A stretch of DNA of 64,000 nucleotides from Mitsuokella sp. oral taxon 131 str. W9106 (GTDB lineage: Bacteria > Bacillota > Negativicutes > Selenomonadales > Selenomonadaceae). Location of the stretch: assembly GCF_000469545.1 (NCBI RefSeq), contig NZ_KI273058.1, positions 1-64,000 on the forward strand. The letters run 5' to 3'. The notes under the pieces are model-generated. The model was not told the origin of the DNA, did not search any database, and saw only the letters and a program-made list of their open reading frames with translations. Positions 26,063 to 43,991 of the stretch are shown piece after piece. The translations under genes were made by a program, and so were the position numbers. Positions within the stretch are counted from its first letter, which is position 1, and every line of letters begins with the position of its first letter.

Positions 26063-26088
26063 GGTCATGCTGTTAGGTCATGCTGTTA
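26063..26088 (+). repeat. 13-bp tandem duplication before the iol operon
   Basis: GGTCATGCTGTTA occurs twice head to tail, ending next to the ribosome-binding site of the dehydrogenase gene. Confidence 0.85.
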
Positions 26089-26102
26089 GGAGAGTGGTTG
26101 TC

Positions 26103-27254
26103 ATGGGGTACACGTTCATGGTTCCGGCAAAGATCCTTTCGGGAACGAATGTCATAGATGAGCTTAGCGGGCACATCAAGGGCAAGGGCACGAAGGCGCT
26201 CATCGTGACGGATCCGTTCATGGTCAAGTTCGGCAATGCGGCGAAGGTCGAGGCGGCGCTGAAGAAGGGCAACATCCCTTATGCGATCTACGACGGCGCA
26301 AACGCCGAACCGACGGACAAGATTGTAGAGGGGGGGCTTGCAGCCTACCGCGCCGAGAAGTGCGACTTTCTCATTGCACTCGGCGGAGGCAGTCCGATGG
26401 ACACGGCGAAGGCCATCGCGTTCCTGTCGGTATCGAAAGGCAAGCTCCGCGACTATATGCATGTGGACATCGACATGGAGGTCCCGTATCTCGTCGCGAT
26501 TCCGACGACGGCAGGCACGGGTTCGGAAGTCACGAAGAATACGATCATCGCCGATACGGAGAACAACGTCAAGATGCTCCTCGGCGGGCCGTCCATCATC
26601 CCCGCGCTCGCGGTCGTTGACCCGACGTTCACGATGACGGCTCCGCCGAAGGTCACGGCAGCGACGGGCATCGATGCGCTCTGCCATGCGATCGAGGCGT
26701 ACACGTCGCGCAAGGCGCAGCCGCTCACGGATACGTTCGCACTGTCCGCCATCAAGAAGATCCATAAGAACCTGCCGCTCTGCTATGCGGACGGCAAGAA
26801 TGTCGAGGCACGCCTCGCGATGTCGATCGCCGCGACGGAGGCGGGCATCGCATTCAACAATGCTTCGGTCACCATCGTGCATGGCATGAGCCGCCCGATC
26901 GGCGCACTCTTCCATATCGCGCACGGCGTATCGAACGCGATCCTCCTGCCGGCGTGCATGAAGTTCGCCATCGAAGAGAACACGGAGCGCTTCGCGACGA
27001 TCGCACGCGTCATGGGCGTTGCGGATGACTTGACGCCAGCGCACGATGCGGCAGAGGCGTTCGTGAAGGAAGTCGCACGTTTCTGCAAGGCGGTCGGCAT
27101 TCCGACGATTGAGGAGCTCGGCGTCAAGAAGGACGACTTCTTTGCGCAGCTCAGCAAGATGGCGGATGACGCGCTCGAGAGCGGCAGCCCACAGAATACG
27201 ATGCGCGTTCCGACAAAGGATCAGCTCATCGCAATCTACAAAGAACTGTACTGA
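26103..27254 (+). CDS. Iron-containing alcohol dehydrogenase of the inositol operon
   Basis: 383 aa, group III Fe-ADH. The NAD-binding loop is in LIALGGGSPMDTAKAIAF. The metal-ligand histidines are in IDALCHAIEAYTS, VHGMSRPIGALFHIAHG. As first gene of the iol operon it should act on an inositol-pathway metabolite. A likely substrate is malonate semialdehyde from the IolJ cleavage, reduced to 3-hydroxypropionate, since no iolA is present. An alternative is oxidation of inositol in place of the missing iolG; that is less likely because IolG enzymes are of a different family. ATG 26103 follows AGGAG. Confidence 0.85.
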   Translation: MGYTFMVPAKILSGTNVIDELSGHIKGKGTKALIVTDPFMVKFGNAAKVEAALKKGNIPYAIYDGANAEPTDKIVEGGLAAYRAEKCDFLIALGGGSPMDTAKAIAFLSVSKGKLRDYMHVDIDMEVPYLVAIPTTAGTGSEVTKNTIIADTENNVKMLLGGPSIIPALAVVDPTFTMTAPPKVTAATGIDALCHAIEAYTSRKAQPLTDTFALSAIKKIHKNLPLCYADGKNVEARLAMSIAATEAGIAFNNASVTIVHGMSRPIGALFHIAHGVSNAILLPACMKFAIEENTERFATIARVMGVADDLTPAHDAAEAFVKEVARFCKAVGIPTIEELGVKKDDFFAQLSKMADDALESGSPQNTMRVPTKDQLIAIYKELY

Positions 27255-27281: not shown

Positions 27282-28124
27282 ATGGCACTCGCAAAACTGT
27301 CCGACCTCATCCATAAGGCGGACGATACCTATGCAGTAGGCGCGTTCAATGTATCGGATATGGAAATGGCAATGGGCGCAATCCGCGCGGCGGAAGAGAT
27401 GCGTGCGCCGCTCATCCTGCAGATTGCGGAAGGACGGCTGCGCTATTCGCCGCTCGATCTCCTCGGGCCTGTGATGCTCGCGGCGGCGAAGCGATGCAGG
27501 ATGCCGACCGCCGTGCACCTCGACCACGGCGGCACGATGGAGACGATCCGGCTCGCGCTTGACCTCGGCTTCACGTCCGTCATGTTCGACGGCTCGAAGT
27601 ACCCACTTGATGAGAACATCGCGCGCACGAAAGAGGTCGTGAAGCTCGCAAGGAGCTACGGTGCGGACGTCGAGGCGGAGATCGGCCGCGTCGGCGGCGC
27701 GGAAGGCGACTACAAGAGCGTCGATGTGCTCGTGACGAGCGTCGATGAGGCCGTCCGCTTCGCAGAAGAGACGGGCGTCGACGCACTCGCCGTCGCGATC
27801 GGCACGGCGCACGGCAACTACAGGGAGAAACCGAATCTTCGCATCGACCGCCTGAAGGAAATCCATGCCGCGACCAAGACGCGCCTCGTCCTGCACGGCG
27901 GCACAGGGCTCACGGAGCAGGATTTTCGGACGTGCCTCGCAAACGGCATCGACAAGATCAACATCGCGACGGCGTCCTACGACGCATCCGCTGCGAAAAT
28001 CAAGGCCATGCACAGCGAGAAGCCGGAGGCGAACTACTTCGACTTCAGCAATGCCATCGTGGAGGCGACGTATGCGAATGTCAAGAAGCATATGCAGATT
28101 TTTGGGCTGAACGGCAAGGCATGA
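27282..28124 (+). CDS. iolJ: Class II aldolase, probable 6-phospho-5-dehydro-2-deoxy-D-gluconate aldolase
   Basis: 280 aa, class II fructose-bisphosphate aldolase family. Visible are YAVGAFNVSDMEM, the zinc ligands HLDHGG, MFDGSKYPLDEN, AIGTAHGNY and LVLHGGTGLTEQD. In inositol catabolism IolJ splits 2-deoxy-5-keto-gluconate 6-phosphate to dihydroxyacetone phosphate and malonate semialdehyde. Placement directly before iolC, the kinase that makes this substrate, supports IolJ over a glycolytic or tagatose aldolase. A strong AGGAGG precedes the ATG. Confidence 0.88.
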   Translation: MALAKLSDLIHKADDTYAVGAFNVSDMEMAMGAIRAAEEMRAPLILQIAEGRLRYSPLDLLGPVMLAAAKRCRMPTAVHLDHGGTMETIRLALDLGFTSVMFDGSKYPLDENIARTKEVVKLARSYGADVEAEIGRVGGAEGDYKSVDVLVTSVDEAVRFAEETGVDALAVAIGTAHGNYREKPNLRIDRLKEIHAATKTRLVLHGGTGLTEQDFRTCLANGIDKINIATASYDASAAKIKAMHSEKPEANYFDFSNAIVEATYANVKKHMQIFGLNGKA

Positions 28125-28136
28125 GGAGGAAAAAGA

Positions 28137-29171
28137 ATGTCACTCATCACCTTTGATGCAAACAAGAAACGCGATGTCGTGCTCATCGGGCGCGTCACGC
28201 TGGACTTCAATCCGAATGAGCTCAACCGCACGCTCGACAAGGTCGAGACGTTTTCCATGTACCTCGGCGGCTCGCCCGGCAACATGGCAGTCGGCATCAA
28301 CAAGCTCGGCAAGAAGGTCGGCTTCATCGGGTGCGTCTCGGATGACCAGTTTGGCGACTTCGTGCTCCACTACTTTGAGGCGCGCGGCATCGACACGAGC
28401 CAAATGACGCGCGCGCGGCACGGCGAGCGCATGGGGCTGACGTTCACGGAGATCAAGAGCCCGACGGAGAGCAGCATCCTCATGTACCGCGATGCCGTCG
28501 CCGACCTCCAGATCCGCCCCGAGGACGTCGACGAGCAGTACATCGCCGATTCCAAGATCCTCATCGTCTCGGGCACGGCGCTTTCGGCAAGCCCTTCGCG
28601 CGAGGCGTGCCTCATCGCGGCACAGTACGCGAAAAAGCACGGCACGCGCATCCTCTTCGACATTGACTACCGCCCGTATAGCTGGCGCACGAAGAAAGAG
28701 ATACAGATTTACTACTCGCTGCTCGCGGGCATGGCGGACGTCATCATCGGCTCGCGCGACGAGGTCAATCTGACGGAAGGGCTCGACGAAGAGGCAGAGG
28801 ATCCAAAGGATCACGTCATTGCCGAGCGGTACATCGCACACGGCGCGAAGATCGTCGTGATCAAGCATGGAAAGAAAGGCTCGATTGCCTACACGGCCGA
28901 CAAGAAAGCGTACAAGGTCGAGTCGTATCGTATCAAGCTCCTGAAGTCGTTCGGCGGCGGCGACGCATACGGCAGCGCGTTCGTCTACGGCCTGCTCTCT
29001 GGATGGTCGGTTGCGGATTCCCTGCAGCACGGCACGGCACATGCGGCGATGGTCGTCGCGAGCCATAGCTGCTCCAACGCGATGCAGACGGTCGAGCAGA
29101 TCGATGCGTTCATGAAGGAGCACAAGGACGAAAAAGTCATCACGGAACTTGCATGGGAGGCGGGATTATGA
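28137..29171 (+). CDS. iolC: 5-dehydro-2-deoxygluconokinase
   Basis: 344 aa, PfkB/ribokinase family. The N-terminal VVLIGRVTLDFNPNE and MYLGGSPGNMAVGINKLGKK bind sugar; the C-terminal catalytic segment is LKSFGGGDAYGSAFVYGLLSG with the Asp base in GGGDAYG. It phosphorylates 2-deoxy-5-keto-gluconate. GAGGAGG precedes the ATG. Its stop overlaps the iolB start as ATGA, so the two are translationally coupled. Confidence 0.94.
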   Translation: MSLITFDANKKRDVVLIGRVTLDFNPNELNRTLDKVETFSMYLGGSPGNMAVGINKLGKKVGFIGCVSDDQFGDFVLHYFEARGIDTSQMTRARHGERMGLTFTEIKSPTESSILMYRDAVADLQIRPEDVDEQYIADSKILIVSGTALSASPSREACLIAAQYAKKHGTRILFDIDYRPYSWRTKKEIQIYYSLLAGMADVIIGSRDEVNLTEGLDEEAEDPKDHVIAERYIAHGAKIVVIKHGKKGSIAYTADKKAYKVESYRIKLLKSFGGGDAYGSAFVYGLLSGWSVADSLQHGTAHAAMVVASHSCSNAMQTVEQIDAFMKEHKDEKVITELAWEAGL

Positions 29172-29965
29172 GATTCGGACGTTTGGGAGCAGAGCTTGCC
29201 CATGGCTACAACGCCATGACGACGCGCGAGAGCGACATGCTCATGGACATCGGCTATCAGGTCATGGAGGAAAACGAGGTCGTCGAATTCGAGGACGCCC
29301 TGCAGGAGACGGCATTCGTCATCCTGACGGGCGACGTCAAGATCGAGTGGGACGGCAAGCGCGAGGTCATGCACCGCGCGTCGCTTTTCGATGAGTGTCC
29401 TTATGCGCTCCATGTGCCGCATGGCAGGAAGGTCGTCCTAAAGGCGCTCAAGGCATCGCAGGTGCTCGTGCAGAAGACGCTGAACGACCGCGATTTCACG
29501 CCGGTATTCTACCATCCTGCCGACGTGCAGGCCGACATCTTTGGCGGCGGTATGTGGCAGGGCACGGCGGAGCGCACGGTGCGCACGATTTTCGACTACG
29601 ACAATGCGCCGTACTCGAACATGGTCAACGGCGAGGTCGTCAACACGCCGGGCTGCTGGTCGGGCTATATCCCGCACAACCATCCGCAGCCGGAGGTCTA
29701 CACGTACAAGTTCGACAAGCCGCAGGGCTTTGGCGCGGCGTTCATCGGCGACAATGCATTCAAGATCTCGCATAATAGCTGGTCGGAGATTTCGGGCGGC
29801 TATATGCATCCGCAGGTCACGGCGCCGGGCTACGCGATGTGGTATAGCTGGATGATCCGCCACCTGCCGGGCAACCCGTGGAAGAAGACGCGCACGGATC
29901 TCCCGGAGCACACGTGGCTCCTCGATCCCGCTGCCGAGATTTGGCAGCCGAAGCGCAAGAAGTGA
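29168..29965 (+). CDS. iolB: 5-deoxy-glucuronate isomerase
   Basis: 265 aa, cupin fold. Isomerises 5-deoxyglucuronate to 2-deoxy-5-keto-gluconate. Conserved segments include YIPHNHPQPEVYTYKFDKPQ, carrying the metal-binding HxH and Glu, and the C-terminal GYAMWYSWMIRHLPG. ATG 29168 is within the iolC stop overlap; the extension to 29153 lacks a ribosome site. Confidence 0.94.
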   Translation: MRFGRLGAELAHGYNAMTTRESDMLMDIGYQVMEENEVVEFEDALQETAFVILTGDVKIEWDGKREVMHRASLFDECPYALHVPHGRKVVLKALKASQVLVQKTLNDRDFTPVFYHPADVQADIFGGGMWQGTAERTVRTIFDYDNAPYSNMVNGEVVNTPGCWSGYIPHNHPQPEVYTYKFDKPQGFGAAFIGDNAFKISHNSWSEISGGYMHPQVTAPGYAMWYSWMIRHLPGNPWKKTRTDLPEHTWLLDPAAEIWQPKRKK

Positions 29966-30001
29966 GCAGCTCCTGTGCGGATGTGTTAGGAGGAAATGAA
30001 C

Positions 30002-31954
30002 ATGGCAAAGACGGTAAGACGGACGGTCGCGCAGGCGCTCGTCAAGTTCCTGAACAACCAGTACGTCGAGTTTGACGGCAAGGAAGTTCCGATGTTTGAA
30101 GGCATCTTCGGCATATTCGGTCATGGCAACGTCGTCGGCATCGGCCAGGCGCTCGAGGAAGATCCCGGCCACCTCATCATGCGCATGGGGCGCAACGAGC
30201 AAGGCATGGCGCATGCGGCCATCGGCTTCGCGAAGCAAAAGCGCCGCAAGCAGATGTATGCCTGCACCTCCTCGGTCGGCCCCGGTGCGGCGAACATGGT
30301 CACGGCAGCCGGCACGGCGACGGCAAACTGCATTCCCGTGCTCTTCCTGCCGGGCGACACGTACGCAGACCGCCAGCCCGATCCCGTCCTGCAGCAGATG
30401 GAGCAGCCGTCGAGCCTCACGGTCACGACGAACGATGCATTCCGCCCCGTCTGCAAGTATTGGGATCGCGTGACGCGCCCAGAGATCCTTATGACGGCGT
30501 GCATCAACGCGATGCGCGTCCTCACGGATCCCGCCGAGACGGGAGCGGTCTGCATTGCGCTTCCGCAGGATGTCGAGGGGGAGGCTTGGGATTACCCCGA
30601 ATATTTCTTCAAGAAGCGCGTCCATCATATCGAGCGCACGAAGCCGTCGGACCGCGCCATCGAAGAGGCGGCAAAGCTCCTCGCAGGCAAGAAGCGCCCG
30701 CTCATGATTTTCGGCGGCGGCGTCAAGTACTCCGAGGCGGAGGAGACGTTCCGCAAGTTTGCCGAGAAGTACGGCATCCCGTTCGGCGAGACGCAGGCCG
30801 GCAAGGGCACGATTCCATGGGACCATCCGCTCAACATGGGCGGCCTCGGCGAGACGGGCGGCCTTGCGGCAAACACGCTCGCGAAGGAAGCTGACCTCGT
30901 CATCGGCGTCGGCACGCGTTATACGGACTTCACGACGTCCTCGAAGTGGATCTATCAGAACCCCGAGGTCGAATTCCTGAACATCAACATCTCGCGCTTC
31001 CATGCCTACAAGATGGACGGCCTGCAGGTCGTCGGCGATGCGGGCGCGGCGCTTTCCATGCTCGATGCGGCGCTCGGCAAGACGGGCTACCATGTCTCCG
31101 ATGCGTATGCAGCCGACATCCAAAAGGCAAAGAGCGATTACGCGGCAGAGGTCGATCGCCTCTTCCATCTCGAGTATACGGGCGATGACTTCGTGCCGGA
31201 GGTCAACGATGACTTCGACTTCAAGAAGGCGGCGAAGGAGTTCCTCAAGGTCACGGGCGGCGCGATGCCGCAGACGCGCGTCCTCGGCGTGCTCGACGCG
31301 TGCATGGACGAGGATGCGATCGTCGTCGGCGCTTCGGGCTCGCTGCCGGGCGACCTGCAGCGCGCATGGTGCCCGAAGTCGAAGGGCAGCTACCACGTCG
31401 AGTACGGCTTTTCCTGCATGGGCTACGAAGTCAACGCGGCGCTCGGCGTCAAGATCGCGGAGCCGGAGCGCGAGGTCTACGCGCTCGTCGGGGATGCGGC
31501 GTACATGATGCTGCACTCGGAGCTTCCCGTTTCGATTGCCGAGCACAAGAAGATCAACGTCATTCTCTTCGACAACATGACGAACGGCTGCATCAACAAC
31601 CTGCAGATCGGGCATGGGCAGGGCAGCTACGGGACGGAAATCCGTTTCCGCAATGAGAAGACGGGTCAGCTCGACGGCGGCTATGTCCCCGTCGACTTCG
31701 CGATGAATGCGGCGTCCTACGGCTGCAAGAGCTACACGGTCCACAATGCGGAAGAGCTCAAGGCGGCGATCGCAGATGCCAAGAAACAGAAGGTCTCGAC
31801 GCTCATCGACTGCAAGGTGCTGCCGAAGACGATGGTGCACGGCTATGGCGACTGGTGGCGCGTCGGCGTCGCCGAGGTCTCAAAGAGCGAGAAGATCCAA
31901 AAAGTCTACAAGGATTTGATGAAGCCGAACTACGATGCGGCTCGAAAATATTGA
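30002..31954 (+). CDS. iolD: 3D-(3,5/4)-trihydroxycyclohexane-1,2-dione acylhydrolase
   Basis: 650 aa, thiamine diphosphate enzyme of the acetolactate synthase superfamily. Opens the inositol-derived ring to 5-deoxyglucuronate. The N-terminal ThDP-binding half contains [16 protein letters not shown] and [18 protein letters not shown]; the C-terminal half has the Mg-ThDP motif starting at [14 protein letters not shown] and ending in the conserved Asn of [11 protein letters not shown] 30002 is eight bases after AGGAGG, making it preferable to ATG 29996. Confidence 0.95.
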
Positions 31955-31988
31955 TGCGGTTGGTTCTGAATTTCTAGGAGGGCTTGAA

Positions 31989-32876
31989 ATGGCGAATATC
32001 AAACTCGGCATTGCGCCGATCGCGTGGACGAATGACGATATGCCGGATCTCGGCAAGGAAAACACGTTCGAGCAGTGTGTCAGCGAAATGGCGCTCGCAG
32101 GCTTCACGGGCTGTGAAATTGGCAGCAAGTACCCGAAGGATGTCGATGTCCTCAAGAAGGCATTGAAGCTGCGCGGCCTCTCGATTGCAAGCGCGTGGTT
32201 CAGCTCCTTCCTTCTCTCGCAGCCGTATGAGCAGGTCGAGAAGGATTTCATCGCGCACTGCGAGTTCCTAAAGGCGATGGGCGCGAAGTTCTGCAACGTC
32301 GCAGAGCAGGGAACGAGCGTGCAGGGCAAGCTCGATGTCCCCGTATTTGCGGGCAAGCCGCACAATACGGAAGAACAGTGGAAGACGCTCGCCGAGGGGC
32401 TGGATCGGCTCGGCGCTGTCGCAAAGAAAATCGGCCTCACGATGACGTACCATCATCACATGGGCACGTGCGTGCAGACGACGGAGGAAATCGACCGCCT
32501 CATGGAGATGACGGATCCGGATCTCGTTTGGCTGCTCTACGATACGGGACATCTGGTCTGCTCGGGCGAGGACCCCGTCGCGATCCTCAAGAAGTATCTG
32601 CCGCGCATCCGCCATATCCACCTCAAGGATATCCGCATGGAGGTGCGCAACAGGGTCAAAGCGGAGAACATGAGCTTCCTCGACGGCGTCCGCGCCGGCA
32701 TGTTCACGGTGCCGGGCGACGGCGATATTGACTTCGAGCCGATTTTCGATATCGTAGGGAAGAGCCGCTACGACGGCTGGTACATCGTCGAGGCGGAGCA
32801 GGATCCCGCCAAGGCGAACCCGCTTGCGTATGCGATCAAGGCGCGCAAGTACATCAAGGAAAAGGCGCATCTCTGA
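31989..32876 (+). CDS. iolE: myo-Inosose-2 dehydratase
   Basis: 295 aa, xylose-isomerase-like TIM barrel. Dehydrates scyllo-inosose to the trihydroxycyclohexanedione used by IolD. Visible are IKLGIAPIAWTNDDMPDLG, the metal-site segment YHHHMGTCVQTTEEIDRLM, HIHLKDIRMEVR and PGDGDIDFEPIFDIV. AGGAGGG precedes ATG 31989. A strong terminator follows, so this ends the iol transcript. No inositol dehydrogenase (iolG) is found here. Confidence 0.94.
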   Translation: MANIKLGIAPIAWTNDDMPDLGKENTFEQCVSEMALAGFTGCEIGSKYPKDVDVLKKALKLRGLSIASAWFSSFLLSQPYEQVEKDFIAHCEFLKAMGAKFCNVAEQGTSVQGKLDVPVFAGKPHNTEEQWKTLAEGLDRLGAVAKKIGLTMTYHHHMGTCVQTTEEIDRLMEMTDPDLVWLLYDTGHLVCSGEDPVAILKKYLPRIRHIHLKDIRMEVRNRVKAENMSFLDGVRAGMFTVPGDGDIDFEPIFDIVGKSRYDGWYIVEAEQDPAKANPLAYAIKARKYIKEKAHL

Positions 32877-33009: not shown

Positions 33010-33136
33010 ATTGAAGCAAAAGAAAACAAAATGTTGGAGATAAAGGAGTCAGAACTTTAGTAAAATGATCCTATAGCAGAAGGGTTTGCTTTTGGATGTC
33101 GAATGGACTATAGAAAGGAAGGACAGGTGCAGCAAG

Positions 33137-34489
33137 ATGTTCAAATGGTTTCTGACTGGGGAAGACCAGCCCCGCATAAAGGATCCGGCGCGGATCAAAA
33201 CCATGTATCGTTCCGCACGGTTCCAAGCCGTCACGGCCATGATCATTGGCTACGGCATGTACTACGTCATGCGCATGACGCTCGGCGTTGCCAAAAAGCC
33301 AATGATCGACGCGGGCTTCACGCCGACGCAGCTCGGTGCGATGGGCGCGGCGATGATGGTCGTCATTGCCATCGGAAAGTTCGCCAACGGATTTATCGCC
33401 GACCATTGCAATATCAAAAAGATCGTGCCGATCGGTCTTTTGGGCGCGGCCGTCGTCAATACGATTCTCGGATTCAGCGATGCGTACTGGGTGTTCCTCG
33501 TCCTTTGGGCGGTCAACGGCGTCTTCCAGAGCATGGGCTCGGCACCGTGCATCGTCTCGCTCTCGCAATGGTTCTCGAAGAGCCAGCTCGCGACGTACTA
33601 CGGCGTGTTCAGCATCGCGCACTATGTCGGCGAGGGCGCGACATATCTCGGCACGGCGATGATCATTGTCGCGTTCGGCTGGCACGCCGCATTCTTCATG
33701 CCGGGCATCGCCTGCATCGTGCTCGCCTTCATCATGTACCGCTTCATGCGCGACCGGCCGGAGACCTACGGGCTTCCGTCCGCGAATGAATACGAGGGCG
33801 AGGTCGCACAGGAGAAGCAGGAACAGGAAGTCTCGACGAAGGAAGCGCAGCTCATGGTCGTGCGCAACCCGTACGTATGGCTTCTCGCGGCGGCGGCAAT
33901 CTGCCTTGGCGTCTCGCGCTACTCCATCAGCAGCTGGGGCGTCGTGTTCCTGCAGGAAGCAAAGAACATGGATCTCGTGACGGCAGGCAGCATCATGTCG
34001 CTCTCGCCGATCTTAGGCGGCGTTGGGTCGTTCTTTTCGGGCATGATTTCGGACAAGGTATTCAAATCGCGCCATTCCGTCACGACGATTGTCTTCGGCA
34101 TCGTGATGCTGCTCGGCATCATCGGGGTCTGCTTCGTGCCGGCAGGGCAGAAGATGCTCACGGCGGCATGCGTCGTGGTCTTCGGCTTTGGGCTCGGCGT
34201 CATCCTCTGCTTCGTCGGCGGGCTTCTCGCCGTCGACCTCTGCCCGCGCAAGGCGACGGGCGCGGCGATGGGCGTCATCGGTCTTCTCGCCTACGGCGGC
34301 GCAGCGCTTCAGGACATCGTCAACGGCATGCTGCTCGATTCGGCGAAAGTGGTCGTCGATGGCGTGACGACGTACCATTTTGAGACGATCATCGAATTTT
34401 GGATTGGAAGCGTCATCCTGATGACGCTCCTCATCGTGCCGACGCTTTGGGCAAAGAAGCATAAGGAACAAGAGGAAGGACAGCCATGA
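33137..34489 (+). CDS. OPA-family MFS transporter (GlpT/UhpT-like organophosphate antiporter)
   Basis: 450 aa with about 12 membrane helices. The N-terminal half has the GlpT/UhpT-like pattern: YRSARFQAVTAMIIGYGMYY, a lone lysine pair in GVAKKPMIDAG and QLGAMGAAMMVVIAIGKFANG. Family members exchange phosphorylated sugars or glycerol 3-phosphate for phosphate. Its stop overlaps the next start as ATGA, tying it to a phosphoesterase. Import of a phosphorylated inositol compound or phosphodiester headgroup is therefore a reasonable inference, but the substrate cannot be read from sequence. ATG 33137 is chosen over longer frames because of the membrane-proximal start. Confidence 0.85.
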   Translation: MFKWFLTGEDQPRIKDPARIKTMYRSARFQAVTAMIIGYGMYYVMRMTLGVAKKPMIDAGFTPTQLGAMGAAMMVVIAIGKFANGFIADHCNIKKIVPIGLLGAAVVNTILGFSDAYWVFLVLWAVNGVFQSMGSAPCIVSLSQWFSKSQLATYYGVFSIAHYVGEGATYLGTAMIIVAFGWHAAFFMPGIACIVLAFIMYRFMRDRPETYGLPSANEYEGEVAQEKQEQEVSTKEAQLMVVRNPYVWLLAAAAICLGVSRYSISSWGVVFLQEAKNMDLVTAGSIMSLSPILGGVGSFFSGMISDKVFKSRHSVTTIVFGIVMLLGIIGVCFVPAGQKMLTAACVVVFGFGLGVILCFVGGLLAVDLCPRKATGAAMGVIGLLAYGGAALQDIVNGMLLDSAKVVVDGVTTYHFETIIEFWIGSVILMTLLIVPTLWAKKHKEQEEGQP

Positions 34490-37410
34490 AACAAGAAGGA
34501 AGGGCACGGCTTTTGAATGGGCCGTACTTGCTGGCGCCGAAATGCGATGGCATGACCATTGCATGGGAAGCGGCGGAGGAGGCAGCGTTTCGCATTTCCT
34601 GCACGGCGCCGGATGGCAGCGTGATGGAGCAAGAAGCAGCGGGCGAAAAGGAGCGTCCGTCAGAGGCATCGCCGGGCGGCGCGTATGTCTACCATGCTGC
34701 GCTGCAGGGGCTTTCTCCTGCCACGCGGTACGATTATGCGGTTTGGTGCGGGGCGCAGTGCTGTGCGCGGGCGCAGTTTTCCACCTTGCAGGACGCGCCG
34801 AAGGCAATCCGCCTCATGACGGTATCCGACACGCATCTCTTTCACGCCGCCCCGTACGTGGAGCGCGCGCTGCGGCGTGAGAAACCGGCGTTTCTCCTGC
34901 ACACGGGCGACATCTCCTTCGGAACGGGCTACCAGCACGACCAGTACCATGATAATTGGTTCGCAAAGATCCCAGCGCTCCTCGCCGAACTCCCCGTATT
35001 CTATACGCATGGCAACCACGATGACGGCCCGTTCTACGATTCGTTTTTTTCCTCCGTGCAGGGCGCGGCATTTTCGTCGCCCGATGGCGGGCATACCTAC
35101 TCCTTTTCGTATGGACCGGCGCATTTCACCGTGGTCGACAGCAATCCGTGGGGACTCCTTGAAATGAATGCGGCCAATGCGGGACTTGCCATCAAGCGCG
35201 GGCTTCGCGAGCGGATCGATGCGCTGCTCGCATGGGCCGAGGCGGATCTGACGAGCGAGGCGGCAAGGCGGGCAGCGTGGCGCGTGCTCGTCATGCATCA
35301 TCCGTACACCGATGCGCTGAACAACCAGTACATCGTGCCGATCGCCGAGCGGTGCGGCGTGAATCTCATGATCGGCGGGCATCTGCACTACTACATCAAG
35401 GCGGTTTCCGTGCAGCCTGGGATCGGAGCGCGTACGGTGTACGTCTGCCAAGGAAGTGCGCAGGATGCCGAAGCGAGGCGCGATGCGGTGCAGGAGGATG
35501 TGCGCCTTTTGGCCGAGTACCCGGAAGCCGTCGCCGTCGGGCGCAACAATTACGGCGTGCTCGACATCACGGAAGAGGCCATCGATTACCGGCTGTACGG
35601 ATTCGAGGAGGACGGGAAAGACACGCTTGTCGATGCCATACACATGACAAAGGACGAGCCGCGGATTCGGTTTTCGGACGTTTCGATCTCTGCGTTGGGT
35701 GACAAAGGCCACGTTGAAGTGCATGCGATGGCGAAAAACGAAGGCACGGGCATCGCCGCCGCAGTCCTCCGCCTCGTGGACAACGGGCAGGCGCATTGGC
35801 TCAATCTCTTCGGGCATGGCACTGGGACGCAGCTTGCCGTGCTGGATCCCGGGGAAAGCCGCAGGCTTACGCTCTGCTATACGGCCGAAGAGGCAGGAGC
35901 ACATGCCATTTCGGCAGAGGGTGCGGAGATCTCCCTGAAGGTGGCGGAACGCGCGCCTATCGGCTGCGCCCACGCGCATCTTGCGCTTGGGGAAGGGAAG
36001 GACGTGGACTGCCTCTTCGCGCGCGTGGAACTCACCAATCGGCGCGCGGCGAAGCAGACCGTGTCCTTGCCGCTGCGGATTGACGGCATGCTTGCCCAGA
36101 CGAAGGAAGTACGCCTTCGCCCGCATGAAAAGCGCATTGTGACGTTCTGCCACCGCTTCACGCAAAGTGGAAGCCACGCGGTGTCGGTCGCGGGGCTTCC
36201 CGAAGAGAAGGTCGAGGTCGAGGGGGCAGTCCGCATCGTGCCGCGCATCGCGGACCAGTCGGGGAAAGGGCATGCCGTGCTCCTGCACGGCACGCCGCGT
36301 CTCATCCAAACGCCGGAGGGGACGGCGGTCGACCTGGAACACTACGGGGACTACATCGAGATCCTGCCCCGTGCTGACCTCGCGACGCCAAATGGGCTTA
36401 CGGGCATGGTCTGGGCGAACATCAATCGCCTTGCGCATGCCGATGAGATGGGGCATAATCCGCTCATGGTGCGCGGCAAGTCCATCGGCTGGGGCGCAGG
36501 CTATGCGTTTCGCATCGCAGTCGAACGGAAGGGAACCATCAAATGGGGCATCTGCCATGACGGCGAAGAGTATTTTTGGCAGGGCGGCGATGCGTGCGTC
36601 GGCAAATGGCGGCAGTACGTGCTCTCTTTCGACAAGGAACGCGGCGGGCGCTCGTTCTGCGACGGCGTCTGCCGCGGCCGCATTGACGGGCTTGCACCTG
36701 AGGCAAAGCTGTGCCAAATGGCGGATCAGCCCATTTTCGTCGGCTTTTCCTTCATCGGGCATGTGATCCCTGAACTTGGGAAGCCGAAATACTTCACGCA
36801 CCTTCCCGCAAGGATCCGACAAGTGCGATTCTACACCGAGGGGCTGACCGAAAAGGAAGTGGAAGCGGTCTATGCGCGTCCGAATAAGATCGGGCCGCGC
36901 GAGGACGCGCTTGCTGTATGGCTAGACTTTGCTTCCATAGAGACGCGGGGAGCACACTGCACGGAATGGCGCCATCCCGCCGTCTATGCGCCTGCCTTTC
37001 GGACGGAGCAGCAGCGCTGGCGGTTCGAGCGGCTTGCCGCGACGGTGCGGATCCCGAAAGGCGCATCCATCCATGCGCGCGTCGAGCTGTCGGATAATCA
37101 ATCCGTCGTCAAGGAAAGCCGCTCGATGGAGCTGCACGACGGCATGAATGAAATTGCGCTTGACGGGATGCAGCCGGCCACATTCCTGCGCATTGCAGCG
37201 CAGATGGAAGCGCGCGTCGGCGAGGCAAAGGCGGCAATCCCCGAGCTCGTTTCCTATTCCGTTTCGGCACGGCGCGGTGCGGACTTCGCGGAGATGACCT
37301 GGTCGACGCGTGCCGATTGGGAGCGCGGCACGTTCTCCGGTGCGGCGGGATTCCCCCCGGTCGACCGCTTGCGCGACTACCCTGAGTACACGGACATCAT
37401 CCACGGCTAG
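34486..37410 (+). CDS. Purple-acid-phosphatase-like phosphoesterase with LamG-like domain (paralogue 1)
   Basis: 974 aa, multi-domain. Residues about 11-103 resemble the Fn3-like N-domain of purple acid phosphatases (LQGLSPATRYDYAVW). A metallophosphoesterase domain at about 107-360 shows SDTHLF (D115, H117), HTGDISFG (D142), HGNHDDG (N177, H178), VMHHPYTD (H271/H272) and GGHLHYY (H299, H301). Two CARDB-like beta domains (about 395-585), a LamG-like sandwich (about 590-795) and a conserved C-terminal domain ending GFPPVDRLRDYPEYTDIIHG follow. There is no signal peptide, so it should be cytosolic. The ATGA overlap links it to the OPA transporter. It has a paralogue at 44041. Substrate unknown; an inositol or glycerol phosphoester is inferred from context. 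Confidence 0.8.
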   Translation: MKQEGRARLLNGPYLLAPKCDGMTIAWEAAEEAAFRISCTAPDGSVMEQEAAGEKERPSEASPGGAYVYHAALQGLSPATRYDYAVWCGAQCCARAQFSTLQDAPKAIRLMTVSDTHLFHAAPYVERALRREKPAFLLHTGDISFGTGYQHDQYHDNWFAKIPALLAELPVFYTHGNHDDGPFYDSFFSSVQGAAFSSPDGGHTYSFSYGPAHFTVVDSNPWGLLEMNAANAGLAIKRGLRERIDALLAWAEADLTSEAARRAAWRVLVMHHPYTDALNNQYIVPIAERCGVNLMIGGHLHYYIKAVSVQPGIGARTVYVCQGSAQDAEARRDAVQEDVRLLAEYPEAVAVGRNNYGVLDITEEAIDYRLYGFEEDGKDTLVDAIHMTKDEPRIRFSDVSISALGDKGHVEVHAMAKNEGTGIAAAVLRLVDNGQAHWLNLFGHGTGTQLAVLDPGESRRLTLCYTAEEAGAHAISAEGAEISLKVAERAPIGCAHAHLALGEGKDVDCLFARVELTNRRAAKQTVSLPLRIDGMLAQTKEVRLRPHEKRIVTFCHRFTQSGSHAVSVAGLPEEKVEVEGAVRIVPRIADQSGKGHAVLLHGTPRLIQTPEGTAVDLEHYGDYIEILPRADLATPNGLTGMVWANINRLAHADEMGHNPLMVRGKSIGWGAGYAFRIAVERKGTIKWGICHDGEEYFWQGGDACVGKWRQYVLSFDKERGGRSFCDGVCRGRIDGLAPEAKLCQMADQPIFVGFSFIGHVIPELGKPKYFTHLPARIRQVRFYTEGLTEKEVEAVYARPNKIGPREDALAVWLDFASIETRGAHCTEWRHPAVYAPAFRTEQQRWRFERLAATVRIPKGASIHARVELSDNQSVVKESRSMELHDGMNEIALDGMQPATFLRIAAQMEARVGEAKAAIPELVSYSVSARRGADFAEMTWSTRADWERGTFSGAAGFPPVDRLRDYPEYTDIIHG

Positions 37411-37732: not shown

Positions 37733-39118
37733 ATGGGGAATCCAGAAGCCAGTGCAGCTACGGCAAAACTGCCATGGCTGACACGCATTGCCTACGGCCT
37801 TGGCGATACGGCACAGAATGTCGTTTGGGGCGCAATGGGCATCCTGACGTTCTTCTATACGGACTATGCGGGCATCGATCCTGCCATGGTCGGTCTCGTC
37901 ATGTTGATTTCGCGCTGTTTTGATGGTTTTTCCGACGTCATCATGGGCTTCATCGTCGAGAAGACGAATTCCAAGTGGGGCAAGTCGCGTCCTTGGATCC
38001 TGTGGATGAGTGTTCCGTTTGCCATATCGATCGTGCTGATCTACACCGTGCCGCAGGGGTCGAGCGCGATGCAGTTCGCCTATCTGTTCGTCACGTACAA
38101 CCTCTGCACGACGGTCTGCTACACGGCACTGAACCTGCCGTACGGCTCGCTCTCCGCGATGATGACGCGCGCCTCGAAGGAGCGCGACATGCTTTCGATC
38201 ACGCGTATGTGCCTCTCCCCTTGGGGGCGCATCCTTTCCGTCTCGGCGACGCTGCCGCTCGTCAAGATCTTCGGCGACAATCAGATGGCTTGGGTCGAGG
38301 TCATGACCGTTTGGGCAGTCGTCGGACTCCTTCTGCTCCTTTTCTGTTTCTCACGCTGCAAGGAGACGGTCGTCATCGAGGCGCGTGAAAAGGTCGCGAA
38401 GATTTCGGCCGGCAAGGCGCTCAAGGCGCTCGCCGTCAACAAGTACTTCTGGTGCGGCATGACGATTTGGATGATGCAGAACGTCATCTTTACGATTACA
38501 GGCACGATTCTTCCCTACTACTGCAAGTACATCTTTCAGGACGATTCGCTCTACAGCGGTCTGTACCTCATGGAGACGCTCATCACGATTGTCGTCATGG
38601 CGGTGTTCAGCCCGAAGCTCCTGCAGCGCTTCGGCAAGCGCAATATGTCGCTCGCAGGCGTTGCGATCTGCTTTATCGGTCATGTCATCTTCCTGCTGAA
38701 TCCAACGGATTTTAACTGGGTCGTCTTCAGCTGCATCATCCGCGGCATCGGATTCGCTCCGATCCAGTCTGTCATTTTTGGCTTCCTTGGCGATGCCGTC
38801 GAGTATGGACAGTGGAAGACGCACCTTCGCCAGGAAGGACTCGTGTTCTCCGGCGGATCGGTCGGCACGAAGGTCGGATCCGGTCTCACGAGCGCGATCC
38901 TCACGGGCCTGCTCTCTTATGCGGGCTACGTCGCTTCCGCATCGGGCACGGTTGCGCAGTCGGCACAGACGATCCATATGATTGTCGACATCTATATGTT
39001 CGGACCGCTTTTCGTTTGGGTCGTCTTGCTGGCGATCCTCGCATTCTACCGTTTGGACAAGATTTATCCGCAGATCATGAGCGACCTCATTCAGCGCGAA
39101 GCGAAGGGCGAGCTCTAA
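37733..39118 (+). CDS. GPH-family sugar:cation symporter
   Basis: 461 aa, 12-helix MFS_2 transporter. GPH signatures include RIAYGLGDTAQNVVWG at the first helix, SRCFDGFSDVIMGFIVEKT, KWGKSRPWILWMSVPF, and FGFLGDAVEYGQWKT in the second half. GPH carriers bring in glycosides, pentosides, hexuronides and related polyols with Na+ or H+. It lies in an inositol-catabolism island, so a cyclitol, inositol glycoside or uronate substrate is possible. AGGAGGGG precedes the ATG, and the cytidylate-kinase-like gene follows 12 bases after the stop. Confidence 0.88.
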   Translation: MGNPEASAATAKLPWLTRIAYGLGDTAQNVVWGAMGILTFFYTDYAGIDPAMVGLVMLISRCFDGFSDVIMGFIVEKTNSKWGKSRPWILWMSVPFAISIVLIYTVPQGSSAMQFAYLFVTYNLCTTVCYTALNLPYGSLSAMMTRASKERDMLSITRMCLSPWGRILSVSATLPLVKIFGDNQMAWVEVMTVWAVVGLLLLLFCFSRCKETVVIEAREKVAKISAGKALKALAVNKYFWCGMTIWMMQNVIFTITGTILPYYCKYIFQDDSLYSGLYLMETLITIVVMAVFSPKLLQRFGKRNMSLAGVAICFIGHVIFLLNPTDFNWVVFSCIIRGIGFAPIQSVIFGFLGDAVEYGQWKTHLRQEGLVFSGGSVGTKVGSGLTSAILTGLLSYAGYVASASGTVAQSAQTIHMIVDIYMFGPLFVWVVLLAILAFYRLDKIYPQIMSDLIQREAKGEL

Positions 39119-39130
39119 GGAGGCAGCACC

Positions 39131-39724
39131 ATGGAAAACAATACACTCGTTACGATTACCCGCCAGTACGGAAGCGGCGGGCGCGAAGTGGCGGATCGCG
39201 TCGCGAAGAAGATGGGCGTGCGCCGCTACGACCGCAAGGTCGTCGCGATGGCAGCCGAGAACCTCGGAAAAGAGGAAGATTTCGACGACCTCATGGAGCG
39301 TTCGTACAACGCGCCGGAGAATTGCCTTGGAAACCTCGGCGACTACGCGTTCGAGCGCGTGCCGCAGCACAATCAGATGTACATCGAGCAGGCGAAGGTC
39401 ATCCTGAAGGTTGCGAAGGAAGGAAGCGCCGTATTCCTCGGCCGCTGCGCGGACTTCATCCTGAAAGACGAGCCGCATTCGTACGCCTTCTTCATCTATG
39501 CGGATGAAGCATTCCGCAGGGCGCGCGCGAAGGACCATTACGGCAACTGCACGCTGAAGGAGCTCGATGCGGAGGACAAGCACCGCGAGCGTTACTACGC
39601 GTACTACACGGGACGCACATGGGGCGACCCGCAGAACTACGATCTCATGATCAACACGAGCAAGATCGGCACCGAAAAGGCGGCGGAACTCATCCTTGCC
39701 TACATTGAGCTTCGCCAAAAGTAA
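39131..39724 (+). CDS. Cytidylate-kinase-like family protein
   Basis: 197 aa. A P-loop-like TRQYGSGGREVADRVAKKMG at residues about 9-28 is followed by RRYDRKVV and FLGRCADFIL, as in the cytidylate-kinase-like family (related to Cmk but with a different core). The true substrate of these stand-alone proteins is unclear. It is translationally close to the GPH symporter (strong AAGGAGG, 12-base gap), so it may phosphorylate an imported compound or regulate uptake; both are speculation. A bidirectional terminator follows. Confidence 0.75.
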   Translation: MENNTLVTITRQYGSGGREVADRVAKKMGVRRYDRKVVAMAAENLGKEEDFDDLMERSYNAPENCLGNLGDYAFERVPQHNQMYIEQAKVILKVAKEGSAVFLGRCADFILKDEPHSYAFFIYADEAFRRARAKDHYGNCTLKELDAEDKHRERYYAYYTGRTWGDPQNYDLMINTSKIGTEKAAELILAYIELRQK

Positions 39725-39791: not shown

Positions 39792-40631
39792 TCAGACCGT
39801 CCATTTCAAACGGTATTCGCGCGGCGTCATGCCGAGCGCTCCCTTGAATACATTTTGGAAGTAATTGGAGTTGTTGTAACCAACTTGCGTTGCGATCTGC
39901 GTGATGGTTTTCTGCGTGTTGATGAGAAGGTTCTGCGCCTCGCCAATGCGGCGCAGGACGACGTAGCGCATCGGCGAGAGGCCGACTTCTTCCTTGAACT
40001 GGTGCGCGAAGTAATAGGGATTGGCGTTCACCGCTTTTGCGATGTCGCCCAAGCGGATAGGCTCTTTGTAGTTCTTGTCGATGAAAGAGAGCGCGCGCGT
40101 GGCGAGTGTCGGCACGCGCTCCATGCAGGGGACCCCGCTTTCTTTGAGGAGGGCGGCGACTTTGCAGATGAGCGCCATGGCAAGGTAGTGCGCGGTTTCG
40201 GCATGTGCTTTTGCCTCTGCCTCGATGAGGGAAAAGAGGTGCAGGAAGGAGGAAAACAGGTTGCCTGTTGGCTGGATTGGGGATAGGCTTTTGGGCACGA
40301 TATGGTTCCTCGGAAGGGCGGGGATGGATAGTTCGCTGACAGCGACACAGTAGGAGGAGAGCTTCGTGCCCGAACCGCCGAACTCATCGTGCACGGTGTG
40401 GCTGTTGTAGAGGATGAGGTCGCCCTTTTGTGCCGTGTAGCGTTTTCCGTCGATCCGGTAGATGCCCGCGCCTTCGTAGAGAAACAGAATTTCCGCGAGC
40501 GTCTCATGCTCGTGCATGCTGCGCGGCATCCATGACGATTCCGGACCCACGTTGCAGACGTACTCGAGACGCGGTCTCGTGCCGCGGGAAAATGTGGCCG
40601 TGTAGCTCTTGCTGGGAAAGAATTGGAGCAC
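39792..40631 (-). CDS. AraC-family transcriptional regulator (first of a tandem pair)
   Basis: 279 aa. The N-terminal cupin-like sensor domain contains EILFLYEGAGIYRIDG and GDLILYNSHTVHDEFGG. The C-terminal double helix-turn-helix (about 180-279) contains IAKAVNANPYYFAHQFKEE and ITQIATQVGYNNSNYFQNVF. The GTG start at 40631 is set by a perfect AAGGAGGTGA seven bases upstream. It follows a second AraC gene by 25 bases on the same strand. The pair lies between two transporter operons that are its likely targets. Confidence 0.9.
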   Translation of the reverse strand: MLQFFPSKSYTATFSRGTRPRLEYVCNVGPESSWMPRSMHEHETLAEILFLYEGAGIYRIDGKRYTAQKGDLILYNSHTVHDEFGGSGTKLSSYCVAVSELSIPALPRNHIVPKSLSPIQPTGNLFSSFLHLFSLIEAEAKAHAETAHYLAMALICKVAALLKESGVPCMERVPTLATRALSFIDKNYKEPIRLGDIAKAVNANPYYFAHQFKEEVGLSPMRYVVLRRIGEAQNLLINTQKTITQIATQVGYNNSNYFQNVFKGALGMTPREYRLKWTV

Positions 40632-40656
40632 GAAATCACCTCCTTGGGAATGTGCG

Positions 40657-41520: not shown

Positions 41521-41770
41521 AGGGACAGCCTTTCTGAATCATAAAAATTTTGCTGAAAGCAAGACGAAAAAGCAAGAACGAAGAGGTTTTTTTTAAATCG
41601 AGCAAGAAAGCAAAGTATATGTCGTGCAATGTTTCGTATAATCATATTCAGAAAGGTTTGGGAATGATGATGTCGTAGAATATTTTGGATAAACCATTCA
41701 ACACTATACCATTATACTATCAAAATACCATAAAATCTAGTTTTTTATTATGATGAGGGAGGGATTGATT

Positions 41771-43180
41771 GTGAGGCAGTTCTTAGCAAAGTATGGTTTT
41801 TCCGAAGCGACGTTTTTTCAATTGATCTTGATTACGATCAATGCACAGCTCATTTATGCGTTTTGGGACATACGCAATAGCGTGCCCGGCGGCTTCCCTG
41901 CCGCACTCGGCGTGACCGACCAGCAGGCGGGCTTTCTTTACTCCATGCAGGGGCTTGTCATCCTGCTCGGCACGATTGCGCTCGGCTGGGTTGGCGACCG
42001 TTTTTCCCTGCGCGGCATCATGCTCCTTTCGACGATTGGCGTTGGCGGCATATCGCTCTTTCTGACGCTCCATTCGCCGGGGCTAAGTATGCCTGTGTTG
42101 CTCGCGTGCTTCTTCTCGATGCTGTTCTTCAGCGAGGTGCTCTTCAAGCCGGCGAACTTCAAGGCGCTTCGGCTGTCTACGACAAAGGAGCATCAAGGCA
42201 TGGCGTTCGGCCTTTTTGAGTTTGGTCGTGGCGTGCTCGCCTTCCTTGTTTCGATGCTTTGGACGGCGATGCTCTACTTCCACGCAGGGCCCAGAACCAT
42301 GATGATGACGGCGTGCGCCGTCATCATCGTGGCAGGCGCGGCTGTGTTCTTCGCCGTGCCAAAGGGGGAAAAGGTCGGCGACGGCGATTCGCAGACGAAG
42401 ACGAACAAGGAGGCGATCAAGGGGATCGTGCGCGTCGCACGTCTTCCCGTCGTCTGGGTTGCGGGCATCAACGTATTCTGTATTTACGGCGCATTCGTGG
42501 CGGCGGGCACGTACTTTGCACGCTTCCTGCAGGGCGGCTATGGCGCGAGCGCTGTCGCTGCTGCGGTGTTCGCGACGGTCGTAATCGGGCTTCGCATGCT
42601 GCCGCTCGTCTCGACGGTGCTCGTGGAGAAGGTGTTCGCGTCGACGGCACATTTCATGTGTGCGATGGAGTGCGTACTCACGGTCCTGCTCGTCGTCATC
42701 GGCTGCATTTTCTTTTTCAATCATCCCGATGTCTCGCTGTACGCTGCAGGCTATGCGCCGAATGAGGCGCCGGATGGGCTCATCGGGGAGGGCATGTTCT
42801 ACTTGCTCCTCGTGCTCCTGCTTGCCGCATCGGCCTGCGTGTTCATGGTGCGCGGCGTCTACTATGCGCCGATCGGCGAGGCGGATGTACCGAAAAAGCA
42901 TTCCTCGGCGGCGATGTCGTTTGCGATTACGCTCGGCTATCTTCCTGCGCTCATTGCGCCGATCGTGCTTGGCGGTCTCGTGCGCTCTCCGGAAAAGGAT
43001 GCGGCAGGGCAAATCGTCCGCTCGTACCTGACGGACACGCATACGCTCGCGCTCGCATTCTTCGGGCTGGCCGTCCTCGCGCTCGTGGCGGTTCTCATGT
43101 CGCACCTCTTGATCCAGCTCAAGAAAAAACAGGAAGATGGCGGAGCGGAAGAAAGAGGAGGAGGGCAGCGTGATGCATGA
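41771..43180 (+). CDS. Major facilitator superfamily transporter
   Basis: 469 aa with about 12 membrane helices. The MFS loop motif is visible as GWVGDRFSLRG after helix 2. The pattern ITINAQLIYAFWDIRNSVPGG at helix 1 and the large polar C-terminal tail are unusual, and I cannot assign a subfamily. GTG 41771 is chosen because AGGGAGGG ends seven bases upstream; ATG 41750 precedes that site. Its last eight bases overlap the PI-PLC-domain gene, so it probably imports the compound that the following two enzymes act on. Confidence 0.82.
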   Translation: MRQFLAKYGFSEATFFQLILITINAQLIYAFWDIRNSVPGGFPAALGVTDQQAGFLYSMQGLVILLGTIALGWVGDRFSLRGIMLLSTIGVGGISLFLTLHSPGLSMPVLLACFFSMLFFSEVLFKPANFKALRLSTTKEHQGMAFGLFEFGRGVLAFLVSMLWTAMLYFHAGPRTMMMTACAVIIVAGAAVFFAVPKGEKVGDGDSQTKTNKEAIKGIVRVARLPVVWVAGINVFCIYGAFVAAGTYFARFLQGGYGASAVAAAVFATVVIGLRMLPLVSTVLVEKVFASTAHFMCAMECVLTVLLVVIGCIFFFNHPDVSLYAAGYAPNEAPDGLIGEGMFYLLLVLLLAASACVFMVRGVYYAPIGEADVPKKHSSAAMSFAITLGYLPALIAPIVLGGLVRSPEKDAAGQIVRSYLTDTHTLALAFFGLAVLALVAVLMSHLLIQLKKKQEDGGAEERGGGQRDA

Positions 43181-43991
43181 GACAAATGCGGACTGGCTCG
43201 AAGGCTTCCCGCGGGATGACGCCATCACGGCGCTCCTCCTGCCCGGCACGCATGACACGATGACGGCTTCCTGCGGGGCGCGCTACTACCGTACGCAGAC
43301 CCTGTCGCTTTCGGAGCAGCTTTCGGCGGGGGTGCGCTTCTTGGACATTCGCCTGCGGCGCGATATGCGGGCAGCGCATCGCGAGTGGGTCAGCACGATC
43401 GACGCCGATGCGATTTTCGGGACGTGCGCGTCGTTCCTGCAGGAGCATGGGACGGAGTTCCTCCTCATGCGCATCCAAAATGCGAATGAGAAGAAGGATG
43501 ACTACGAGGCGTACGGCGCGGCTCTGCACGAAAAAATTGCAAATTGGAGCGATTTGTTTTACCATAGGGAGGAAGGTTCTTTCGCTTGGCCGACGCTCGG
43601 CGCATGCGCGGGAAAGGTCGTCGCGCTCGAATGTGCGCCTCCGAAGTATGGCTTTTCCCGCATGGCGGGGCGCACGTGGGCAGAGAACTGGCATGGCAAT
43701 CCTCGGATTTCCCTGCAGGATCTTTGGGATGGCCCGACGGAAGCGGAAAAGCAGGATGCGATCCGTGCCCAAATGGAGCAATCGGCACGTCTCCCGCAGG
43801 ATGTCCTGTCACTCAGCCACATCAGCGCGACGAATGGCGAGCTCGGCTTTCCCGATGCCTTCGCAAGGCGCATGAATCCATACAGCCTCGCGCTGTTGAA
43901 GGAGATGCCGGCGGCGCGTGGTGCGCTCATCTACGATTTCATCACGCCCGCCATCTGCGAGGCGGTCATCGCGCGGAACGGGAAACGATGA
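43173..43991 (+). CDS. PI-PLC X-domain protein (phosphatidylinositol-specific phospholipase C-like)
   Basis: 272 aa. The X-domain start LLLPGTHDTMT carries the first catalytic His (H27). A TQTLSLSEQLSAGVRFLDIR block follows with the Arg/Asp pair, then a second His (H69) before FLQEHGTEFLLMRIQ. Bacterial enzymes of this family cleave phosphatidylinositol or GPI to inositol cyclic phosphate and then inositol 1-phosphate. There is no signal peptide, so it should act inside the cell, perhaps on an imported cyclic phosphate or glycerophosphoinositol. GGAGGAGGG precedes ATG 43173. It overlaps the transporter stop and is followed by phosphoesterase paralogue 2. Confidence 0.82.
   Translation: MHETNADWLEGFPRDDAITALLLPGTHDTMTASCGARYYRTQTLSLSEQLSAGVRFLDIRLRRDMRAAHREWVSTIDADAIFGTCASFLQEHGTEFLLMRIQNANEKKDDYEAYGAALHEKIANWSDLFYHREEGSFAWPTLGACAGKVVALECAPPKYGFSRMAGRTWAENWHGNPRISLQDLWDGPTEAEKQDAIRAQMEQSARLPQDVLSLSHISATNGELGFPDAFARRMNPYSLALLKEMPAARGALIYDFITPAICEAVIARNGKR

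Follow-up and report, generated by a model that had tools for sequence, protein, structure and literature searches.

The window analyzed here, a stretch of 64,000 nucleotides from Mitsuokella sp. oral taxon 131 str. W9106, encodes a LamG-containing metallophosphoesterase (PAP-LamG) whose predicted fold resembles that of purple acid phosphatases (PAPs). Judging from its genomic context, PAP-LamG is probably the cytosolic last phosphatase of a phytate/inositol-phosphate salvage pathway. Outside the membrane, a secreted PTP-like phytase would strip InsP6 to an inositol monophosphate, mainly Ins(2)P, which a GlpT-like antiporter (33086-34489) would import in exchange for phosphate. PAP-LamG (34486-37410), a predicted two-metal metallophosphoesterase, would then convert the cytosolic monophosphate to myo-inositol and phosphate, with the freed inositol entering the IolG-E-D-B-C-J route and the released phosphate available to drive the antiporter again as a counterion. 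A paralogue (44041-46956) would probably act likewise on inositol phosphate supplied by an adjacent cytosolic PI-PLC homologue, whose own source is perhaps an imported diester such as glycerophosphoinositol. The sequence itself shows the genes and domains, the intact ligand positions, the lack of signal peptides and of a canonical inositol monophosphatase, and the gene linkage and co-occurrence, from which we infer the substrate, the direction of transport, and the cytosolic location.

More tentatively, this unnamed cytosolic LamG-metallophosphoesterase family may be the Ins(2)P phosphatase that is still missing for phytate degraders of the gut and rumen, operating with a dedicated inositol-monophosphate:phosphate antiporter, while a DxQ paralogue takes the products of the cytosolic PI-PLC homologue and so gives phosphoinositide-derived compounds a second way into inositol fermentation. 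The locus provides a named candidate pair, importer and phosphatase, for the last phosphate of phytate, testable in culturable Mitsuokella and Selenomonas, and it is relevant both to how livestock obtain phosphorus and to the conversion of phytate to propionate in the human gut. If true, the proposal might explain the faster growth of Mitsuokella on phytate than on free inositol, and it would mean that organisms devoid of the canonical inositol monophosphatase employ an unrelated enzyme.

Domain Architecture and Predicted Fold

The 974-aa open reading frame was confirmed as real by full-length relatives sharing 38–59% identity, and a frameshift or fusion artefact was ruled out by about 30 relatives with identical full-length architecture. 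The gene and its domains are as follows.

34486..37410, + strand: PAP-LamG metallophosphoesterase, predicted cytosolic, proposed inositol monophosphate phosphatase (ORF, Pfam, homologues, model)
34510..34782, + strand: fn3-like/PAP N-terminal domain, aa 9-99 (Pfam PF16656 below cutoff, 30/32 homologues, model)
34795..35661, + strand: metallophosphoesterase domain, aa 104-392 (Pfam, ligand positions, fold comparison)
35665..36240, + strand: two beta domains, about aa 394-486 and 490-585 (from the model's secondary structure; weak CARDB match)
36253..36936, + strand: LamG/concanavalin-like jelly roll, about aa 590-817 (Pfam PF13385; fold matches with Z 18-19)
36943..37407, + strand: conserved C-terminal beta domain, aa 820-974 (homologues, model)

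Pfam placed Metallophos (PF00149) at aa 109-303 (E 1.3e-12; 49 bits against a cutoff of 21.5), LamG_3 (PF13385) at aa 621-792 (27.7 bits, cutoff 27.6), and the PAP N-domain (PF16656) at aa 22-98 (24.9 bits, below the cutoff of 30). The marginal LamG_3 and PAP_N scores are not due to chance, since each family recurs in 30 of 32 homologues, with Metallophos in all 32. In most relatives the C-terminal domain ends in YTD(I/V)IHG. NCBIfam holds no named family for either PAP-LamG copy of the window, and a PDB sequence search with the 974-aa protein returned no useful match.

An AlphaFold2 model built from the 32-homologue alignment (mean pLDDT 86.8, pTM 0.77) was compared with solved structures. 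Foldseek ranked wheat purple acid phytase (PAPhy) and kidney-bean PAP best (E about 1e-16 to 1e-14). Using VIA-align, residues 5-392 of the model matched kidney-bean PAP, wheat PAPhy, and PhoD with Z scores of 34, 28, and 26, respectively, and residues of about 611-819 matched LamG/pentraxin jelly rolls such as PAPP-A and PTX3 (Z 18-19). An earlier note on this DNA had read the protein as a metallophosphoesterase with two beta domains, a LamG-like domain, and a conserved C-terminal domain; Pfam and the model bear out this layout, and both the PAP and the concanavalin-like fold were recovered. The LamG domain could possibly bind inositol, form oligomers, or close the active site. Foldseek also matched the C-terminal half to the receptor-binding domains of clostridial neurotoxins, which reflects a common jelly-roll fold and was given no functional meaning.

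An Antiporter Gene Overlapping the Phosphatase Gene

The start codon of PAP-LamG overlaps the stop codon (ATGA) of the gene just upstream, listed here.

33086..34489, + strand: OPA-family organophosphate:phosphate antiporter, GlpT-like (family match, residues, co-occurrence)

The true start of the antiporter is probably the ATG at 33137. Its relatives include GlpT, UhpC, and PgtP, and alignment places GlpT residues R45, K80, H165, and R269 at R63, K98, H179, and R278. Among 28 relatives of the antiporter, K98, H179, and R278 are invariant, and R63 is replaced by Lys in five. The uptake proteins GlpT, UhpT, and PgtP share its family and phosphate-binding residues; unlike them, it is paired one-to-one with a predicted cytosolic phosphatase and with inositol genes. 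Within the sample of 151 Selenomonadaceae genomes, the 24 that encode PAP-LamG are precisely those with a close orthologue of the antiporter (62–88% identity); the remaining 127 have neither, and the next-best OPA proteins reach 36–39%. The overlap, the phosphate-binding residues, and the identical genome set all argue for the salvage role. Context could be read for 29 related loci: in 27, an antiporter gene precedes PAP-LamG on its strand, usually at a distance of less than 200 bases, and the two exceptions (L045 and L047) have a gene for a PHP-family phosphatase at this position instead.

Distribution and Linkage to Inositol and Phytase Genes

The 24 Selenomonadaceae carriers were defined by whole-protein homologues, two of which are incomplete (interrupted in G073 and split over contigs in G011). 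A class-wide sample yielded carriers in 31 of 350 genomes, including a few from other Negativicutes families, and a phylum-wide sample (3/398 carriers) revealed none outside the family of the window; across the family, class, and phylum samples, every PAP-LamG relative found belongs to the Negativicutes. A search of plasmids retrieved no homologue. Named carriers include Selenomonas ruminis, S. ruminantium WCT3, and a Megasphaera MAG.

In the window, an iol operon precedes the antiporter/PAP-LamG pair, and a symporter gene follows it.

26067..27254, + strand: iron-containing alcohol dehydrogenase, head of the iol operon
27282..28124, + strand: class II aldolase, IolJ-like by position
28137..29171, + strand: IolC (TIGR04382 over cutoff)
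29153..29965, + strand: IolB-like protein (TIGR04378 below cutoff)
29996..31954, + strand: IolD (TIGR04377 over cutoff)
31935..32876, + strand: IolE (TIGR04379 over cutoff)
37733..39118, + strand: GPH-family sugar:cation symporter (TIGR00792 over cutoff)

The iol genes, together with iolG, are frequent neighbors of PAP-LamG in relatives, and genes for secreted PTP-like phytases are present in 15 of 29 PAP-LamG loci. Genome G010 carries a tandem phytase nearly identical to PDB 3f41, the M. multacida enzyme; this genome is probably a Mitsuokella, and its antiporter/PAP-LamG pair adjoins its iol operon. At the genome level, iolD was detected in 29 of 31 carriers compared with 29 of 319 other genomes, and at least two matches to the phytase family PF14566, in which tandem repeats were sometimes counted twice, in 27 of 31 compared with 10 of 319. 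Fisher tests on such co-occurrence ignore the relatedness of the genomes; stronger evidence comes from the neighborhoods, which recur in rearranged form in different genera and families.

Several observations run against the salvage role. The phytase of the window's own genome is unlinked to the PAP-LamG locus, and no PTP-like phytase was detected in three carriers (G111, G327, and G335), and inositol phosphates freed by their neighbors may therefore serve some carriers. Conversely, two phytase-rich iol genomes (G032 and G092) are devoid of PAP-LamG. PHP relatives are also encoded elsewhere in carrier genomes, including that of the window, and could perform the same job or part of it. Across other families, many loci have a gene for a PHP-domain phosphatase directly before PAP-LamG (L053:8775-9485, L054, L055, L058, L043, L042, L045, and L047), and its product is possibly a partner of PAP-LamG or an alternative to it.

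Both Ends of the Proposed Pathway and a Missing Middle Enzyme

Phytases commonly leave the axial 2-phosphate in place. The genome of the window encodes, on another contig, a secreted PTP-like phytase of 398 aa (E 3e-150 to PhyAsr) and has its own iolG, whereas a profile search of this genome did not find the inositol monophosphatase family PF00459. The genome thus has both ends of the pathway but lacks its customary middle enzyme. PF00459 was likewise absent from 18 of the 19 further Negativicutes genomes examined, whether or not they carry PAP-LamG, and was present in 14 of 14 control genomes; this near-universal SuhB/IMPase family is thus missing in 19 of 20 Negativicutes genomes overall. 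The reaction proposed for PAP-LamG from its context, inositol monophosphate to inositol, is that of SuhB/IMPase, to which it is unrelated in fold and sequence; Pfam gave no PF00459 match for the 974-aa protein. The absence of PF00459 adds to the salvage case made by the linkage and co-occurrence of iolD, iolG, and PTP-like phytase genes.

Published physiology places an inositol monophosphate intermediate in Mitsuokella. The main text of De Vos et al. 2024 (PMC7618129) describes a route in Mitsuokella from phytate via Ins(2)P and myo-inositol into the Iol pathway, Ins(2)P being an observed intermediate in Mitsuokella jalaludinii en route to inositol and 3-hydroxypropionate. This route and the position of the G010 pair beside its iol operon favor the salvage role. 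Against it, the same text assigns the whole dephosphorylation to the periplasmic phytase and also credits an inositol transporter; within that main text, no importer, cytosolic phosphatase, or last-step gene is named for Ins(2)P. A later review likewise puts Ins(2)P between the two steps that lead from InsP6 to inositol (PMC12482443). In the open-access literature we found no bacterial inositol-2-phosphate phosphatase or matching uptake system, although one may be described elsewhere.

A Paralogue Linked to a PI-PLC Homologue

About 7 kb from the PAP-LamG gene, a second copy is located behind an MFS gene and a gene for a PI-PLC homologue.

41750..43180, + strand: MFS transporter of the paralogue cassette (Pfam; same order in G106 and G111)
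43137..43991, + strand: PI-PLC homologue without signal peptide (sequence similarity)
44041..46956, + strand: second PAP-LamG, 49% identical, DxQ variant (Pfam, alignment, tree)

The PI-PLC gene overlaps the preceding MFS gene by 44 bases. Its product matches 1aod and 2plc (E 3e-20), and His39, Arg72, His81, and Asp267 align with residues of the catalytic region of bacterial PI-PLC; a single-sequence AlphaFold2 model reached a pLDDT of 37.7, too low for a TIM barrel to be read from it. Finding a PI-PLC in the cytosol of a bacterium is unusual in its own right. The homologue occurs in just 3 of the 151 family genomes, always in the order MFS, PI-PLC, PAP-LamG. The PAP-LamG copies linked to it, one from each of the three genomes, form a single clade with support of 100/100 (window 44041-46956, L034:7941-10907, and L036:15431-18331), and they alone have the His of DxH replaced by Gln. 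This substitution suggests a changed substrate or metal, the substrate perhaps being an inositol phosphate or a cyclic phosphate derived from an imported diester. The PI-PLC homologue beside the paralogue, the lack of a signal peptide in all 32 homologues, and the shared fold with PAPs and wheat phytase all speak for the salvage role.

Metal Site and Likely Substrate Class

The D/GD/GNH/H/GHxH metallophosphoesterase motifs are present in all 32 homologues. The predicted ligand positions D115, H117, D142, N177, H271, H299, and H301 are kept throughout, save for the Gln at H117 in the three PI-PLC-linked copies. PAPs possess a Tyr metal ligand (GDxxY) and DxG as motif 1. The corresponding position in PAP-LamG, residue 145, is occupied by F, Q, L, I, R, or P and never by Y in the 32 homologues, and motif 1 is DxH, or DxQ in the three, and never DxG. 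On these two grounds PAP-LamG, although PAP-like in predicted fold, is not a true purple acid phosphatase, and its site resembles the one found in ordinary two-metal phosphoesterases. The earlier designation as purple-acid-phosphatase-like therefore holds for the fold and the N-domain and fails for the metal site, where DxH replaces DxG and the Tyr ligand is gone. Plant PAPs and wheat PAPhy do share the combination of fn3-like N-domain and metallophosphoesterase domain, and wheat PAPhy acts on inositol phosphate, as proposed for PAP-LamG. They differ from PAP-LamG in sequence (about 16% identity) and in the metal site, and PAP-LamG is predicted to be cytosolic and possesses additional beta, LamG, and C-terminal domains.

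Similarities to diesterases raise the question of whether PAP-LamG is a phosphodiesterase rather than a monoesterase, cleaving an imported inositol diester (glycerophosphoinositol or a cyclic inositol phosphate) and leaving another phosphatase, such as a PHP enzyme, to finish. The two-metal phosphodiesterases GpdQ and Rv0805 share the metallophosphoesterase fold, the DxH-type site, and the HHP motif, and enzymes of this type match the model with Z about 18; PhoD shares the fold and the N-domain arrangement. GpdQ, Rv0805, and PhoD nevertheless have no LamG domain and occur in other gene contexts. PI-PLC, the partner of the paralogue, yields cyclic or diester-derived products, and PHP phosphatase genes adjoin PAP-LamG in several loci. 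The known substrates of the antiporter family are monoesters, however, as are the products of the neighboring PTP-like phytases, and no PHP gene belongs to the operon of the window, of the probable Mitsuokella loci, or of S. ruminantium. We consider a diesterase unlikely on balance.

Still less probable is a general cytosolic phosphatase for other imported organophosphates, such as glycerol or hexose phosphates, with the inositol genes as mere neighbors. OPA relatives do carry glycerol-3-phosphate, hexose phosphates, or phosphoglycerates, but imported sugar phosphates would normally be consumed without dephosphorylation, and linkage to and co-occurrence with phytase, iol, and iolG genes extend across several families.

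Predicted Location and Neighboring Genes

Inspection of N-termini and their hydrophobicity revealed no signal peptide in any of the 32 homologues. The 974-aa protein scores 0.75, compared with 2.0–2.5 for phytases of the same loci, and the N-termini of most homologues are far less hydrophobic than those of the phytases; the few that come near them do so solely within the stretch forming the N-domain's first strand (NGPYLL...). The earlier prediction of a cytosolic protein lacking a signal peptide is thus upheld across the homologues. What had seemed odd, a cytosolic phosphatase of this type, ceases to be so if its substrate is imported, as is probable, by the product of the overlapping antiporter gene; the earlier note had left out that gene, the iol operon, the 49%-identical paralogue, and its PI-PLC partner.

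Non-classical export, followed by action outside the cell on phytate or glycan-bound phosphate via the LamG domain, is very improbable: LamG and fn3-PAP enzymes are mostly extracellular, and an ordinary PAP_N metallophosphoesterase encoded in the same genome has an N-terminus of twin-arginine-like type, yet a signal is absent from the entire homologue set, and the gene overlaps that of an inner-membrane importer. The ordinary PAP_N enzyme is a protein of 432 aa (L067:2674-3972, − strand, contig C16). Another twin-arginine-like N-terminus belongs to a protein of about 390 aa encoded downstream of PAP-LamG in a related locus (L043:16088-17272), which has no Pfam or NCBIfam match and has relatives in three other such loci.

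Scans for promoters and terminators returned no more candidates than shuffled sequences. Between the two PAP-LamG units, the window encodes a (d)CMP-kinase-like protein scoring far below the family cutoff (39131-39724) and two tandem AraC regulators (39792-41520). In many relatives, AraC genes are found in divergent orientation to the antiporter gene.
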